From a virus, in IMG/VR virus record IMGVR_UViG_3300020419_000045, positions 1 through 35,754 of that record: DNA of 35,754 nucleotides; one strand, written 5' to 3'. The notes below the pieces were generated by a model. It was not told the DNA's origin. It saw only the letters and a list, made by a program, of their open reading frames with translations, and ran no database searches. Positions 3,696-35,754 of the stretch are shown piece by piece (within the stretch, counting starts at the first letter, position 1; each line of letters opens with the position of its first letter). The position numbers and the translations under genes were made by a program.

Positions 3696-4476
3696 GGCTA
3701 GGTATGTTATGACTATGTGGTTGTAATTGACCACCTGGTGTGGTAACTACAACGTCAGCACACACAGCGAAGTATGGAGACTTTGGATGGAACATTATTC
3801 CCGCCTTTTTCAATTCACCACAATTTTTTAATCTTGCGATCTCAAAGTCTAATCTCTTGTTGGCAAGGGCTTGTGCTTGCAAATCATTCTGTGCTTGTGC
3901 TGCTTCGTGACATTGCTGTTGTAGTTTCTTGTTAAGTGGTATGGATAGAGTAGCAGATAAACCAGCATTAAATGATTGGTTTGCAGACATATCAGTTCGT
4001 ACAGGTTTATTCCATAGAACATTACCTGGATTATCTGGTCTTCCATCGGGACCATTTACATCTACAGTGATCTCCATATCTTCACCATCAGGAAACCATC
4101 TAGTTCCATCTGCCTTTGTCCTTGTGTCATACCAAGACTCCCAAGGATAGTTTTTAACAGTAACTGTCTGTTGTGTAGTACGACCAGTGAAGTCGGTCAT
4201 ATCATATTGTGGTTCATTATAAAAATCGACCCAAGGATCTTTCCTTGAGTCTGCAAACTGGATGTATGGTGTAAGGTTGAACGTTGCACCTTGACATTGC
4301 ACACCACCACCATATGTGTTTGTTATATACGGACCTTGTAAAACTTGTATTGCCTGGTTGGTTACTGAGCCTGAAGAATTGGCAATCGGGTTTGCAGTAG
4401 CAGATACACCTCCAACGTTTTCAGCACGTAAAGGTAAACATTGAACGCTGAGAACCGTTGCTATTACTGGGTAAAT
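3475..4476 (-). CDS. Exported protein with signal-like N-terminus; no standard start codon
   Basis: About 333 aa if translation begins at the ATT at 4476. The mature-looking part carries the cyanophage segment AENVGGVSATANPIANSSGS followed by QVLQGPYITNTYGGG. Before it sits a typical export signal (KYIYPVIATVLSVQCLPLRA). The frame is open back to an ATG at 4782, but that stretch lies inside the upstream gene in another frame and contains no ATG, GTG or TTG. The next in-frame GTG is downstream, inside the mature part. The ATT overlaps the upstream gene's stop by 13 bases, so translational coupling is plausible. The C-terminus is Ser-rich, with a helical QQCHEAAQAQNDLQAQALAN segment in the middle. 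Function unknown. Confidence 0.65.
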   Translation of the reverse strand: MYPVIATVLSVQCLPLRAENVGGVSATANPIANSSGSVTNQAIQVLQGPYITNTYGGGVQCQGATFNLTPYIQFADSRKDPWVDFYNEPQYDMTDFTGRTTQQTVTVKNYPWESWYDTRTKADGTRWFPDGEDMEITVDVNGPDGRPDNPGNVLWNKPVRTDMSANQSFNAGLSATLSIPLNKKLQQQCHEAAQAQNDLQAQALANKRLDFEIARLKNCGELKKAGIMFHPKSPYFAVCADVVVTTPGGQLQPHSHNIPSPKWIDPSSSSSSDNQSQVIPSSSDKDLSSVPFEKDGKQNPLVSFFQNLLPSSKSVSLPSESGQLEVLQIGQMP

Positions 4477-4943
4477 GTACTTGTTGTATCTGTGACGCTT
4501 CTTATAGTTGTGACCCTTTGTATTATTGTCTGGTTGGTCATCCCAGGTCCTTGATAACTTTGAGTAAATTGGAACGGTTCCCCTTGGGTTGTCATAGTGA
4601 AGTTGTTCTGTGAAGAGAAGTCTAAGTTGTCGAACGAACTTGTTACCGACCCTGTTACGCTGACTCCGTTTGTCGAAGTGCTTAACGTTGACGGTGTTAC
4701 TGTCACTGTTGATGTATTCACTGGTGGGTTGAGAGGTTGATTGTTGTTGGAAACCCCTGTCCCTGTCACTGCGTATTCCCATCCTGTACGATAATCTATA
4801 CTGTTTATGGTCTCCGTCACTGTAGACTCAGTTTCCGTATGGGAAGTCATAGAGCCTTGTTGGAAATTCGGGACCACAGGCACCGCAAGGGTTCTCAATG
4901 GTACACCAAAGAAACATAATAGTAGGAGTCCTATTCGTTTCAT
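4464..4943 (-). CDS. Exported Ser/Thr-rich protein
   Basis: 159 aa. The N-terminus MKRIGLLLLCFFGVPLRTLA is a clear signal peptide with cleavage expected after TLA. The rest is Thr, Ser, Val and Asn-rich, low in charged residues and probably beta-structured. Near the C-terminus it has TTQGEPFQFTQSYQ, which resembles TTQGNAYSFTQN in the adjacent exported protein at 4959-5471. It sits 15 bases after that gene, with TATATATAAT just ahead of its ATG. No Shine-Dalgarno is evident. Function unknown; a virion fibre or envelope-surface role is inference. Confidence 0.75.
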   Translation of the reverse strand: MKRIGLLLLCFFGVPLRTLAVPVVPNFQQGSMTSHTETESTVTETINSIDYRTGWEYAVTGTGVSNNNQPLNPPVNTSTVTVTPSTLSTSTNGVSVTGSVTSSFDNLDFSSQNNFTMTTQGEPFQFTQSYQGPGMTNQTIIQRVTTIRSVTDTTSTFTQ

Positions 4944-5613: not shown

Positions 5614-6054
5614 ATGACTATTCAAAGATACCAAGCTTCTGACTTACCTGATCTATTTGACAAGATCACAAAGAACAGCATTGGATTCGATAACTTTTTT
5701 AATTCTGTTTGGGATGTACCAAATCAGACCTATCCACCATACAACATCATCAATCTTAACAATCACGAGTCCAGACTAGAGATTGCTCTTGCAGGATTCA
5801 AGAAAGATGAGGTGAAAGTCTATACAGAGTATGGTCAACTACACGTAGAAGGAACAAAAACTGATAAAGAAGACGTAGAGTATTTCCATAGAGGTCTTGC
5901 AGGAAGATCTTTTGAAAGGGTATGGAAACTTACTGACGATTCTGAAGTCAAGAGTGTAGCGTTTGAGGATGGACTACTAACAGTTGATCTCAAAAAGATA
6001 GTACCAGAGTACCATCAGAGAAAAAATTACCTAGGTGTTGACAAAGAGTCCTAG
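5614..6054 (+). CDS. hsp20: Small heat shock protein Hsp20
   Basis: 146 aa, IbpA-like alpha-crystallin chaperone, a hallmark cyanophage core gene. The alpha-crystallin domain covers about residues 40-135: PPYNIINLNNHESRLEIALAGF, then LHVEGTK, and the closing strand FEDGLLTVDLKK. The ATG at 5614 is preferred over an in-frame ATG at 5569 because AAGGAG sits 4 bases ahead of it. The protein should hold unfolded proteins, perhaps during capsid assembly or photosystem stress; that role is inferred. Its 3' end carries a strong promoter for the next cassette. Confidence 0.93.
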   Translation: MTIQRYQASDLPDLFDKITKNSIGFDNFFNSVWDVPNQTYPPYNIINLNNHESRLEIALAGFKKDEVKVYTEYGQLHVEGTKTDKEDVEYFHRGLAGRSFERVWKLTDDSEVKSVAFEDGLLTVDLKKIVPEYHQRKNYLGVDKES

Positions 6055-30156: not shown

Positions 30157-30164
30157 GCCGACTC

Positions 30165-30188
30165 GGAACGGATTCGTTCATCCTATGT
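30165..30188 (+). repeat. GGAACGGAT...CATCCTA element, copy 1, including the 13-base start repeat
   Basis: GGAACGGAT (30165-30173), five spacer bases, then CATCCTA (30179-30185). GGAT and ATCC can pair as a small stem. The same two blocks recur at 30366-30388, with a 7-base spacer. The 13-mer CGTTCATCCTATG (30175-30187) lies within this element. Confidence 0.55.
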
Positions 30189-30364
30189 ACCACATACTAC
30201 TCAGTCTAATAGCAATAGGAGCACCACTTGATTGTGAACACGCTGCTGAACTATTAGAAAACGTAACTAAAAACCCTGATAGATCTGAGAGATTAGAACT
30301 AACAAGAGTTGTAGTTGCACACACTGATCCAGGATGTTTTCCATCGGACGCAAAAGTTGACTGA
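30185..30364 (+). CDS. 59-aa protein with signal-like N-terminus
   Basis: Starts MYHILLSLIAIGAPLDCEHA, a short hydrophobic segment resembling a signal or lipoprotein-type leader, then a charged helix (NPDRSERLELTRVVVAH) and DPGCFPSDAKVD. Two Cys (residues 17 and 51) could form a disulfide after export. The gene lies between two copies of a short repeat. Not recognised. Confidence 0.55.
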   Translation: MYHILLSLIAIGAPLDCEHAAELLENVTKNPDRSERLELTRVVVAHTDPGCFPSDAKVD

Positions 30365-30365
30365 A

Positions 30366-30388
30366 GGAACGGATATTAAACCATCCTA
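30366..30388 (+). repeat. GGAACGGAT...CATCCTA element, copy 2
   Basis: Same two blocks as at 30165, now 41 bases ahead of the next ATG and separated from it by ACTTTGGAGAAA, which supplies a Shine-Dalgarno. Confidence 0.55.
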
Positions 30389-30406
30389 CTACTTTGGAGA
30401 AACCCA

Positions 30407-30526
30407 ATGGCAAAAGTCACTTACCGTGGTGTTGTATATGACACCAATAGAAACAAAACTCAGCAACAATCAAAGGTCGATCTAGTTTACCGTGGTGTAA
30501 AATTAGAGAAAGAACTTAGCAAATAA
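30407..30526 (+). CDS. 39-aa DUF4278-like protein
   Basis: Begins MAKVTYRGVVYDT and ends LVYRGVKLEKELSK. The twice-repeated YRG(V) with Y-D/E after it is the pattern of DUF4278, a small cyanobacterial family of unknown function, so this is probably host-derived. GGAGA lies 8 bases ahead of the ATG. Its TAA runs into the ATG of the next gene. Family assignment from memory of the motif. Confidence 0.65.
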   Translation: MAKVTYRGVVYDTNRNKTQQQSKVDLVYRGVKLEKELSK

Positions 30527-30613
30527 ATGCTAATTACGTTAGAAATCATAGGAGCATCTGTGGTTTTCTTATCGATCATATACGCTGAAGTTCAGTTTTT
30601 ATACAATCACTAA
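30527..30613 (+). CDS. 28-aa single-TM micro-protein
   Basis: MLITLEIIGASVVFLSIIYA followed by EVQFLYNH: a single transmembrane helix with short ends. Starts at the base after the previous stop and is followed by the terminator at 30649. Resembles the tiny membrane subunits or effectors found in cyanophage photosynthesis regions, but matches none I know. Confidence 0.5.
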   Translation: MLITLEIIGASVVFLSIIYAEVQFLYNH

Positions 30614-30648
30614 CACTGTTTACAAAGACAGTTTAATTTGATACAATA

Positions 30649-30671
30649 GAGGGCAATTAGCCCTCTTTTTT
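30649..30671 (+). terminator. Intrinsic terminator
   Basis: GAGGGC (30649-30654) pairs with GCCCTC (30660-30665) over a 5-base loop and runs into a T6 tract (30666-30671). A weaker stem (ACTGT...ACAGT) lies just upstream. It separates the small-gene cluster from talC. Confidence 0.92.
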
Positions 30672-30674
30672 ATT

Positions 30675-30681
30675 CTAAATA
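30675..30681 (+). promoter_or_regulatory. Candidate late promoter of talC (CTAAATA)
   Basis: CTAAATA directly after the terminator and 26 bases ahead of the chosen talC ATG at 30708. A transcript from it would start about 30687, past the alternative ATG at 30684. Confidence 0.6.
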
Positions 30682-30707
30682 TTATGACAAAACCTAGGAG
30701 CAGTACA

Positions 30708-31937: not shown

Positions 31938-31962
31938 CAGGGTGCTAAAAGTCTGCTATATA
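31934..31962 (+). promoter_or_regulatory. Sigma70-type promoter (TTGACA-17-TATATA)
   Basis: TTGACA (31934-31939), 17-base spacer, TATATA (31957-31962). It overlaps the stop region of the GIY-YIG gene and points to the 49-aa gene at 31985. Confidence 0.78.
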
Positions 31963-31984
31963 GTAGGTTCATTCGAGCACTTCT

Positions 31985-32134
31985 ATGACTAACTTTCTAG
32001 AGGAACAGGACTTCTTGGGAAATTATATAGAACTTCTGGTTGATAGACTACATCAATCTGTTAGTGAAGGAAACTTTGATGAAGCACAGGTTTTAGCAGA
32101 CGAAATAAAGAAGATTCAAGCGACTAATAAGTAA
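31985..32134 (+). CDS. 49-aa acidic hypothetical protein
   Basis: MTNFLEEQDFLGNYIELLVD leads into RLHQSVSEGNFDEAQVLADE and a short Lys tail: two amphipathic helices, no Cys or TM. It has its own near-consensus host-type promoter about 20 bases before the ATG, suggesting early expression. Not recognised; it could be an inhibitor of a host enzyme or a decoy, but nothing in the sequence decides this. Confidence 0.6.
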   Translation: MTNFLEEQDFLGNYIELLVDRLHQSVSEGNFDEAQVLADEIKKIQATNK

Positions 32135-32182
32135 AAATTATATCACTCATAAAAAATCAGTAACTCTGTCAGGATTTAAAGC

Positions 32183-32211
32183 TTGACAAAACTTAACATT
32201 TGCTATATATT
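32183..32211 (+). promoter_or_regulatory. Sigma70-type promoter of the hli cluster
   Basis: TTGACA (32183-32188), 17-base spacer, TATATT (32206-32211), 29 bases ahead of the first hli ATG at 32240. This points to early expression of the hli genes. Confidence 0.72.
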
Positions 32212-32239
32212 ATTGTTACACTTCTTAACATAGTTACAA

Positions 32240-33784: not shown

Positions 33785-33949
33785 GTGAAAACATTTAAAC
33801 TACAACTGAAAACTGCTAAAGACAAGTGGGTTACACTCACAAACTATACAGGTCTTTCAGAACATAAAGCAAAGTTTTATGAAAAGATTTGCACATTCAG
33901 CAAAAACTTTGTACCATATTATAAAGAGATACGTGCTGTAAATGACTGA
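33785..33949 (+). CDS. 54-aa basic protein, GTG start
   Basis: Reads VKTFKLQLKTAKDKWVTLTN, then GLSEHKAKFYEKICTFSKNF and YYKEIRAVND, a compact basic protein. The GTG is supported by the late promoter 20 bases upstream, the full use of the gap between neighbours, and an 8-base overlap with the next ATG. No Shine-Dalgarno. Not recognised. Confidence 0.5.
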   Translation: MKTFKLQLKTAKDKWVTLTNYTGLSEHKAKFYEKICTFSKNFVPYYKEIRAVND

Positions 33950-34157
33950 CTTACTAGAAGCAAGAAGAAATATTCTCTCCGCTTTGAATAGGTGGAAGAC
34001 AAACTGTTCCAATTATGAGTTTGCTGATTGGATTATAAGTAAACGTCATCATTTACAACTAGCATTCGATTGTAGTGAGATATTAGAGAGTCAATTATCA
34101 AGACTTTATATTGAATACTACGATGAACCAAAAGAAATCAGCAAAGAAATTAATTAA
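33942..34157 (+). CDS. 71-aa hypothetical protein
   Basis: MTDLLEARRNILSALNRWKT, then ADWIISKRHHLQLAFDCSEI and an acidic end: helical, no TM. Overlaps both neighbours by a few to 35 bases. Not recognised. Confidence 0.55.
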   Translation: MTDLLEARRNILSALNRWKTNCSNYEFADWIISKRHHLQLAFDCSEILESQLSRLYIEYYDEPKEISKEIN

Positions 34158-34260
34158 ACTTGCAAAACAGGGTAAGAAACTATATAATAAAAGTGATATA
34201 ATATATGCAAAGATGATCTTACGATCATTAAAAAAGAAATCAAATGGATCCAATGATTGA
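34123..34260 (+). CDS. 45-aa Lys-rich protein
   Basis: MNQKKSAKKLIKLAKQGKKL, then YNKSDIIYAKMILRSLKKKS, a highly basic helical protein that looks like a small conserved cyanophage family. It overlaps the gene before by 35 bases and the gene after by 17. Probably nucleic-acid binding by charge alone; inference. Confidence 0.6.
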   Translation: MNQKKSAKKLIKLAKQGKKLYNKSDIIYAKMILRSLKKKSNGSND

Positions 34261-34585
34261 AATCGCATACCTAGGAGCAATGTTAATGTTAGGAGTCCTA
34301 GCATTTAGAATGATGTCTCAAGGTTGGGGTGCGATGGCAAATACTAAGTCAGACAGTTATGGGTCTGTTATGAAAGCATATGGTAAGACACATCCAGAGA
34401 TGAAAGAAGTAAAGGATGGTGATGAACTGATGGGTATAAACTTTACACCTGACCCAGAGTTCATAAAGAAGTATAAGAACGGAGACTACCATCTAAATCA
34501 ATCATTACAAGATAGAATTGCAGAGTTAGAAGATGATGACGATGATGAAGATGAAGGGGATGGAGATATAATAGTCAGAGTTTGA
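34244..34585 (+). CDS. Membrane-anchored acidic protein before psbA
   Basis: 113 aa. One N-terminal TM helix (IEIAYLGAMLMLGVLAFRMM), a hydrophilic middle with SYGSVMKAYGKTHPEM and FTPDPEFIKKYKNGD, and a very acidic tail (ELEDDDDDEDEGDGD). I recall proteins of this type next to psbA in cyanophages, with no assigned role. The TM helix and acidic tail suggest a peripheral thylakoid or inner-membrane position. Confidence 0.7.
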   Translation: MDPMIEIAYLGAMLMLGVLAFRMMSQGWGAMANTKSDSYGSVMKAYGKTHPEMKEVKDGDELMGINFTPDPEFIKKYKNGDYHLNQSLQDRIAELEDDDDDEDEGDGDIIVRV

Positions 34586-34602
34586 TTGGGTATATATGCT
34601 TA

Positions 34603-34631
34603 TTGACTTTTGTGTAAAGATTTTGTAATAT
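34603..34631 (+). promoter_or_regulatory. Possible sigma70-type promoter overlapping the psbA late promoter
   Basis: TTGACT (34603-34608), 17-base spacer, TAATAT (34626-34631, 4 of 6). It overlaps the late box at 34629-34636, so psbA could be read both early and late from nearly the same point. Confidence 0.4.
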
Positions 34632-34636
34632 AAATA
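34630..34636 (+). promoter_or_regulatory. Late promoter of psbA (TATAAATA)
   Basis: TATAAATA at 34629-34636 is an exact T4-type late element. Transcription should start near 34642, giving a leader of about 180 bases before psbA. Confidence 0.75.
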
Positions 34637-34641
34637 CTCGG

Positions 34642-34822
34642 AGATGCTAACATAGCATCCATTAGAAAGGACTCGAACGTATCGCCCTCCTATCTACAAA
34701 CTGCTCCCAACCAAGACCTCTGTAGGCAGTATAATACTTCGTCTTTAATATCCAGTAGCGAGGGGTTACTGGAAATAAGTTTCGCATCTACCCTTGGTGC
34801 CCTACTTACAAACGTCTTACTA
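34642..34822 (+). ncRNA. Structured psbA 5' leader, candidate PhotoRC-type element
   Basis: The leader has at least two clear stems: GATGCTA/TAGCATC over ACA (34643-34659), at the expected transcript start, and TCCAGTA/TACTGGA over a 9-base loop (34751-34773). ACTGC...GCAGT (about 34701-34731) may form a third. No credible gene lies here. Conserved RNA motifs called PhotoRC-I and PhotoRC-II are known upstream of psbA in marine cyanobacteria and cyanophages; this leader is a candidate member. A match has not been computed. Confidence 0.5.
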
Positions 34823-35754
34823 ATGACAACCTCAAATTTAACACGCAGAGAGAGTGGTCTCCTACAAGGATGGCCAGAGTTCTGTGAATGGGTAACATCA
34901 ACAAACAACAGAATATATGTTGGTTGGTTTGGTGTCCTAATGATTCCCTGTTTGCTTGCAGCAGCAGCGTGTTTCATCGTTGCTTTCATCGCAGCACCTC
35001 CAGTCGATATCGACGGAATCAGAGAACCAGTAGCGGGTTCTTTTATGTACGGTAACAACATCATCTCTGGTGCAGTTGTTCCTTCATCAAACGCTATAGG
35101 TCTACACTTCTACCCAATCTGGGAAGCAGCAACAGTAGATGAATGGTTATATAACGGTGGTCCTTACCAGTTAGTTATTTTCCACTTCCTTATCGGAATC
35201 TCTGCCTATATGGGTAGACAGTGGGAACTATCTTACAGATTAGGAATGAGACCTTGGATCTGTGTAGCATATTCTGCTCCAGTTTCAGCAGCATTTGCTG
35301 TATTCCTAGTGTATCCTTTCGGTCAGGGATCTTTCTCAGACGGAATGCCTCTAGGTATCTCAGGTACGTTCAACTTTATGTTCGTGTTCCAAGCAGAACA
35401 CAACATTCTAATGCACCCTTTCCATATGGCAGGAGTAGCAGGAATGTTTGGTGGTAGTCTCTTCAGTGCAATGCACGGTTCTTTAGTTACATCTTCTCTA
35501 ATCAGAGAGACAACAGAGAACGAGAGTCAAAACTACGGCTACAAGTTCGGACAAGAAGAAGAAACATACAACATTGTAGCAGCACACGGTTACTTTGGTC
35601 GTCTTATCTTCCAGTATGCTTCTTTCAACAACTCAAGAAGTCTTCACTTCTTCCTAGCAGTATTCCCTGTAGTCTGCGTATGGTTAACCTCAATGGGTAT
35701 CTGTACAATGGCATTCAACCTTAACGGTTTCAACTTCAACCAATCAGTTGTAGA
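34823..35754 (+). CDS. psbA: Photosystem II D1 protein (3' end cut by window end)
   Basis: 310 codons are present and in frame to the window end; about 50 are missing. The start is [12 protein letters not shown], three residues longer than usual before VTSTNNR. Landmarks: Tyr-Z in [10 protein letters not shown], the Mn-ligand Asp in FSDGMP, the P680 His in [10 protein letters not shown], iron-ligand His in SAMHGS and SLHFFL, and the plastoquinone-site Ser in FNNSRS. The residue matching D1 position 130 is Gln (YMGRQWE), as in low-light D1 forms. No intron interrupts it in this part. The phage D1 replaces the host protein during infection. Confidence 0.98.

Follow-up and report, generated by a model that had tools for sequence, protein, structure and literature searches.

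The psbA leader and its promoters

The window, a stretch of 35,754 nucleotides comprising positions 1 to 35,754 of IMG/VR virus record IMGVR_UViG_3300020419_000045, finishes within psbA, a photosynthesis gene found in many marine viruses. The start codon is preceded by a 237-nt gap (34586-34822) in which a scan for plus-strand ORFs of at least 8 codons found three, each of 8-10 codons. The ORF before the leader (34244-34585) matches PHROG 275, a family of unknown function, and matches DUF2973 below its cutoff. An earlier sequence-only reading had called so long a leader unique in the window. The leader does contain no plus-strand ORF of more than 10 codons, but its uniqueness is not strictly shown, as 30157-30683 and 31938-32239 also lack plus-strand ORFs of at least 60 aa; both contain plus-strand ORFs of 28-59 aa. 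The features of the leader are collected in Table 1, and the positions given by that reading for the promoter elements and both of its stems proved exact on recheck.

Table 1. Features in and around the psbA leader, in window coordinates
Feature	Position	Strand	Remarks
sigma-70-type promoter, TTGACT-17-TAATAT	34603..34631	+	TTGACT 34603-34608, 17-nt spacer, TAATAT 34626-34631; arrangement conserved in relatives
T4-like late promoter box (predicted), TATAAATA	34629..34636	+	ATAAATA in relatives' leaders; published motif
5'-terminal hairpin, 7 bp, loop of 3	34643..34659	+	pairs 34643-34649/34653-34659; at expected transcript start
optional hairpin P0	34663..34696	+	UAGAAAGGA ... UCCUAUCUA, inner CGA/UCG
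Rfam PhotoRC-II (RF01717) match	34688..34786	+	62.2 bits
hairpin P1	34700..34730	+	ACUGCU 34700-34705 / GGCAGU 34725-34730
putative pseudoknot strand 1, AAGAC in P1 loop	34713..34717	+	covariation
putative pseudoknot strand 2, GUCUU	34741..34745	+	partner of 34713-34717; covariation
hairpin P2, 9 bp, loop GAGGG	34751..34773	+	pairs 34751-34759/34765-34773
hairpin P3, beyond Rfam boundary	34776..34808	+	outer UAAGU/ACUUA 34776-34780/34804-34808; inner GCAUC/GGUGC 34784-34788/34796-34800; loop UACCCUU
psbA (D1)	34823..35752	+	ATG at 34823; 310 codons, 3' end cut by window edge

As the sequence-only reading had described, the sigma-70-type promoter overlaps a late box, TATAAATA, which shares 3 nt with the -10 element. 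This box is a NATAAATA box in promoter position and is thus predicted, from its sequence, to be a T4-like late promoter; the NATAAATA consensus is that given in the text of PMC2984593. Sigma-70-like sites are no commoner than chance at this end of the window (7 in 33800-35754, compared to 6.0 expected, sd 2.4), and the match is convincing because the same arrangement recurs in relatives, not from the window alone. Among 128 PhotoRC-II leaders (5 of 133 were left out as their upstream sequence was too short), a sigma-70-like site overlaps ATAAATA in 74; 6 have both without overlap, 32 only the sigma-70-like site, 6 only the late box and 10 neither. ATAAATA was found in 86 of the 128, compared to 8.1 (sd 2.9) in mononucleotide shuffles. 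Passages of PMC2984593 suggest early/late promoter overlap for cyanomyovirus genes, and the text of PMC5931967 (Puxty et al. 2018) reports that cyanomyovirus psbA genes are preceded by a combined sigma-70/Gp55 motif, so that the overlapping early/late promoter at cyanophage psbA is, on the evidence of that text, already published.

Both promoters would start the transcript at nearly the same place, which we infer from general promoter geometry to be presumably at about 34638-34642. The leader would then measure about 181-185 nt, in agreement with the roughly 180 bases estimated earlier, and its 5' end would be closed almost at once by a hairpin that begins about 1-5 nt past the expected start. 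This stem, also picked out by the sequence-only reading, is real and lies outside the Rfam model described below. Of 118 relatives, 93 have a hairpin of at least 6 bp in the first 50 nt past the promoter, compared to 36.4 (sd 4.4) in mononucleotide shuffles, and 106 distinct hairpins were observed among the 114 leaders with one of at least 4 bp, the stem being kept while its sequence changes; this conservation is a count of hairpins and not a column-by-column covariation test.

The minimum-energy fold of the whole leader, at -49.8 kcal/mol (z -2.97), beats all of 200 shuffles. The closest annotated leaders are those of the Prochlorococcus phages P-HM2, MED4-213, P-HM1 and P-TIM68. In P-HM2, an annotated 'hypothetical protein', PHM2_211 (1557-1691 of the extracted region L217), overlies the leader RNA and is probably not a gene.

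PhotoRC-II and its predicted extensions

The sequence-only reading had proposed that the leader holds a PhotoRC-type RNA, to be checked with the PhotoRC-I and PhotoRC-II models of Rfam and by covariation of its stems, and the proposal was borne out. In the whole-window scan, PhotoRC-II (RF01717) was the sole Rfam match over cutoff (62.2 bits against a cutoff of 39, E 1.8e-8 for the whole window) and covered the full model length, 1-96. PhotoRC-I (RF01716, cutoff 45 bits) gave no match in the window and none at E<=10 in 34300-35000. The downstream stem of that reading is the second hairpin of the PhotoRC-II model, P2, and it covaries, 8 of its 9 pairs having changed on both sides. P1 and P2 are both present in the minimum-energy fold of the window, with 2 non-standard pairs in P1 flagged by cmscan, and the match lies directly upstream of a cyanophage psbA. 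In score, in these two hairpins and in position it is like PhotoRC-II elsewhere, and on sequence grounds it belongs to that family. As printed by cmscan, the model has no hairpins other than P1 and P2, and its last position is the 13th past P2; to our knowledge, cmscan prints no pseudoknots, and Rfam may therefore annotate one for PhotoRC-II.

Leaders for comparison were taken from four viral-contig scans, one genome-contig scan, 16 annotated phage regions and a loose pattern scan, giving at least 408 psbA places and at least 312 unique leaders, the viral scans contributing the best 80 of about 600 each. The P1-loop motif was found in 138 of the 312 unique leaders. In 134 of these it is accompanied by a complement further downstream and by a P1 of 4 bp or longer; in 4 it is not. 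By eye, L389 in the set of 134 is coding sequence wrongly picked up, and the 133 leaders that remain comprise 115 long and 18 short ones. Of the 4 without complement or P1, two (L392 and L371) resemble coding sequence, and the other two are Rfam matches with full pseudoknot pairing, namely L216, whose start was misplaced, and L412, whose P1 is divergent.

P1 in these relatives averages 6.09 bp, compared to 3.80 bp with shuffled flanks (132 leaders). The pairing of its loop with the downstream complement indicates, from sequence comparison, an H-type pseudoknot. Across the 133 leaders, the two strands are GAGAC/GUCUC in 77 (76 phage loci and the contig L490), AAGAC/GUCUU, as in the window, in 37 and GAGAU/AUCUC in 12, with the rarer types AGGAC/GUCCU (3), GGGGC/GCCCC (2), GAGGC/GCCUC (1) and GGGAC/GUCUC (1, with one G-U pair). 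An unpaired A precedes CC in all 133, CC itself being a selection criterion, and an unpaired U follows the second pseudoknot strand in 126.

RNAalifold was run on an alignment (A1) of 88 long leaders of less than 92% identity, for which complementarity was required for inclusion, and it picked the pseudoknot helix and P2 unprompted. It predicted neither P1 nor P3: the former is incompatible with the pseudoknot there, and the latter is poorly aligned in A1. The pseudoknot has 0 broken cells in the 88 sequences, and 4 of its 5 pairs have changed on both sides; given the complementarity requirement, its 100% paired cells are partly so by construction. For pseudoknot and P2 together, 93.2% of cells are paired, compared to 69.8% in shuffles and at most 50.6% when slid, and the covariation score is 0.632, compared to 0.199 and at most 0.170, where the shuffles ignore relatedness and the slid control keeps it. 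One of the five measures, further pair types, was not above shuffles (38 compared to 36.5; 125/500). Because A1 had been selected for complementarity, we rechecked the pseudoknot in examples found by the Rfam model. With no complement filter, it is present in 12 of 12 model-matching phages (11 by script; for L213, where the script gave a chance pair, by the motif listing), as well as in 17 of the 18 Rfam matches among 20 hand-picked loci, the 18th (L243) having 4 of 5 pairs. The leader of T4 gene 32 contains an H-type pseudoknot bound by gp32 and, as generally described, is alike in being a T4-like phage leader with such a fold, although ahead of a different gene.

The third hairpin, P3, ends 14 nt before the AUG. 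Of 101 distinct tails that come after a readable P2, 88 enclose a loop containing CC in an inner stem of 5 bp or more, compared to 6.05 (maximum 12) in 100 mononucleotide shuffles. These comprise 32 distinct stems, and swapped arms are fully paired in only 2.8%. The outer stem and the loops could be read in 107 of 114 long leaders (87 unique), and the outer stem measures 4.53 bp compared to 3.93 bp when swapped, a value reached in 0 of 500 permutations. A hairpin kept while its sequence changes indicates, as far as comparison of leaders goes, that P3 is a third hairpin of the element. A kissing interaction between the P2 (GAGGG) and P3 (CCCU) loops, GGG with CCC, is unproved: at least 3 bp could form in 86 of the 87, yet the value of 3.80 compares to 3.87 in permutations. 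Upstream of P1, the pattern of P0 occurs in 22 of the 134 motif-bearing leaders, and 34664-34698 taken by itself has a fold of -6.7 kcal/mol.

The 18 short leaders keep P1 and the pseudoknot and lack P2 and P3, with 35-40 nt between the start of the second pseudoknot strand and the AUG. All except one (L346) fall under the Rfam cutoff. One contig with this form has a manA RNA downstream of psbA (L333, 1952-2124). Another, L490, is titled 'Euryarchaeota archaeon', carries psbA with a short-form leader and is probably a misplaced cyanophage contig.

Passages of PMC2864571 (Weinberg et al. 2010) report PhotoRC-II from marine samples and a cyanophage, beside genes that are probably psbA, and PMC9602691 (2022) describes it in its text in 15 marine cyanophages. 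With PhotoRC-II already reported in phages, the window holds one more member of a known RNA. What is added here is a structural revision, namely the pseudoknot and P3, and a short form, features of the window and its relatives that go beyond the printed model. The pseudoknot may lack newness, since PMC7657543 (2020) names PhotoRC-II as one of the families whose database structures omit covarying pairs, the pairs being unspecified in its text. In a search of article texts, only PMC7657543 and PMC2864571 were found to name PhotoRC-II together with a pseudoknot. Revised in this way, with a pseudoknot, a third hairpin and a minimal short form, the structure shows precisely which positions could be mutated and which homologues the present Rfam model misses.

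Distribution among phages and hosts

PhotoRC-II is linked near-exclusively to psbA, judging by where its sequence pattern falls: among the matches listed for the exact pattern (n=120), 113 immediately precede psbA, 6 are at the end of a contig and 1 (L560) precedes another ORF. Among the matches listed for the loose pattern (n=120), psbA follows 28, another 5 are at contig ends and the remaining 87 have no psbA within 400 nt. P1 reaches 5 bp or more in 22 of these 87, of which 21 look accidental by eye and one is a duplication (L149); loose-pattern matches are mostly chance.

Two contigs carry two copies each, L560 at 4679-4786(-) and 5892-5985(-) and L149 at 4313-4405(+) and 5681-5769(+). The copies are 1.2-1.4 kb apart in these two cases, which are too few to build on; the first precedes inserted ORFs and the second lies at psbA. 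By eye, each copy has its own promoter-like sequence and 5' hairpin, and the first copy lacks P3 in both contigs and a matching P2 in L149. An inserted ORF of L560 has an HTH match below the Pfam cutoff and, by eye, an HNH-like motif that has no Pfam match.

Among the 16 phage records, 12 have one PhotoRC-II match each, at psbA, 11 of them over cutoff and that of P-RSM3 below it at 37.4 bits. No match was found in S-PM2, P-SSP10, S-CBP3 and NATL2A-133, the last three of which are Autographiviridae. The loop motif is absent from 95 unique phage leaders (among them L243, an Rfam match, and L409, which is cut short), implying that many psbA genes do without PhotoRC-II. Of 100 unique phage leaders counted as lacking the element, 56 lie at most 30 nt past an ORF end. 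The phage DSL-LC02 (L216), from a Dishui Lake water sample, carries PhotoRC-II at 49.9 bits, although the texts of PMC2864571 and PMC9602691 present it as marine.

A host origin of PhotoRC-II found no support. RF01717 was over cutoff in 0 of 12 picocyanobacterial genomes and 0 of 151 genomes of Prochlorococcus, the genus of L463, and the four weak matches (23.7-27.3 bits) have no psbA in the locus. Control genomes in these searches gave no match, the 151-genome search used stricter filters, and the same model does match phage records. The genome containing L490, which has the short form, gave no RF01717 match, so that the host searches would miss short forms. Among unique leaders from host records, the loop motif with its complement was found in none except L490. 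In the hosts' family, 19 of 201 genomes have a PhotoRC-I match above cutoff. At the two host loci examined, PhotoRC-I immediately precedes psbA, as PhotoRC-II does in phages, but it has 44 positions, two plain hairpins and no evident sequence likeness to PhotoRC-II. The revised structure also separates the PhotoRC-II of phages from the PhotoRC-I of their hosts.

Possible action on the psbA mRNA

Our overall explanation, which we consider rather probable, is that the stretch belongs to a T4-like cyanophage as the 5' leader of its psbA, with a PhotoRC-II element that acts on the mRNA rather than on transcription. From the 5' end, the leader would present the 5' hairpin, the optional P0, P1 with the H-type pseudoknot, P2 and P3. 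The 5' hairpin and the pseudoknot would protect the mRNA, and P2-P3, the part adjoining the start codon, would set how easily D1 synthesis is initiated by ribosomes in a gene that has no Shine-Dalgarno. The most likely function is post-transcriptional control of psbA mRNA, at translation or stability; we infer this effect, as well as any signal acting on the leader, for which the sequence-only reading had suggested light, redox state or D1 demand. Control of stability or translation start is favored by two results together: no terminator-like site on the plus strand of the leader (34640-34822), and no Shine-Dalgarno-like tetramer at -18 to -4 in any of the 133 leaders. The missing Shine-Dalgarno weighs little, as it is also absent from 25 of 30 hand-picked starts in the window; in the two other groups of phage psbA, 38 of 44 leaders and 54 of 56 likewise have none. 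From its letters alone, the P2 loop was considered as a candidate displaced Shine-Dalgarno and set aside. On the other hand, the text of PMC6847405, covering two cyanophages, describes Shine-Dalgarno use much like that of cyanobacteria, which would make psbA an exception.

The alternatives overlap with the favored explanation and with each other, and their probabilities do not sum to one. A long and structured leader could be a transcription attenuator, but this is highly improbable given that the leader has no intrinsic terminator-like site on the plus strand and no U-run follows P2 or P3. If the pseudoknot core instead bound a small molecule or redox-linked cofactor, with P2-P3 as the expression platform, the nearly invariant unpaired letters of the H-type fold and the place of P3 adjoining the start codon would be accounted for. 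Riboswitches often serve several genes of one pathway, however, and this element is found only before psbA, the two duplications aside; the 18 short forms do without P2-P3 altogether. Nor is there a convincing case for a switch in which GUCUU at 34741-34745 alternates with a second copy immediately upstream of the start codon: complementarity between the P1 loop and the start region measures 3.53 compared to 3.48 (sd 0.03) in permutations (43/1000), with 5 of 5 pairs in 23 of the 133. We regard a ligand-binding riboswitch as rather unlikely.

Recognition of the pseudoknot by a host or phage RNA-binding protein, such as a D1-feedback factor or a thylakoid mRNA localizer, would fit gene-specific control, as the one-gene association suggests, and thylakoid mRNA localization in cyanobacteria is a topic of published work, as parts of that literature attest. 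Unique leaders from host records other than L490 lack the motif with its complement, and RF01717 was never over cutoff in the host genomes searched, leaving this reading unlikely. It is also conceivable, if doubtful, that the leader is a passive stabilizer only, its 5' hairpin and compact fold slowing decay with no sensing, a narrower form of the favored explanation. The 5' hairpin kept in 93 of 118 relatives is consistent with this, as are S-PM2-type leaders, which by eye have only a 5' hairpin, and the proposal in the text of PMC5931967 that the S-PM2d 5'-UTR hairpin may affect stability; the nearly invariant letters of the pseudoknot loops would be left unexplained.

According to the text of PMC5931967, psbA is the sole phage gene of S-PM2d that is proportionately changed by light, making a light response of psbA plausible. 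The psbA region of S-PM2d is like that of the window in its overlapping sigma-70/Gp55 motif, its unusually long upstream gap and its 5'-UTR hairpin, as far as that text describes it, but the S-PM2 record has no PhotoRC-II match, and the light result therefore says nothing about PhotoRC-II. The text further assigns to S-PM2d an intron and an antisense RNA. Under an extended form of the mRNA-level explanation, the pseudoknot might sense a signal linked to light, be it a metabolite, redox state or a protein related to D1, and P2-P3, beside the start codon, might tune D1 synthesis accordingly. Phages with the element would then respond to light by RNA alone, in place of the intron splicing used by S-PM2-type phages; we consider this decidedly unlikely. 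Group I introns were also observed on the same strand downstream of psbA starts with PhotoRC-II in two contigs (L249, 1602-1835; L240, 1593-1795), indicating that an intron and PhotoRC-II can coexist.
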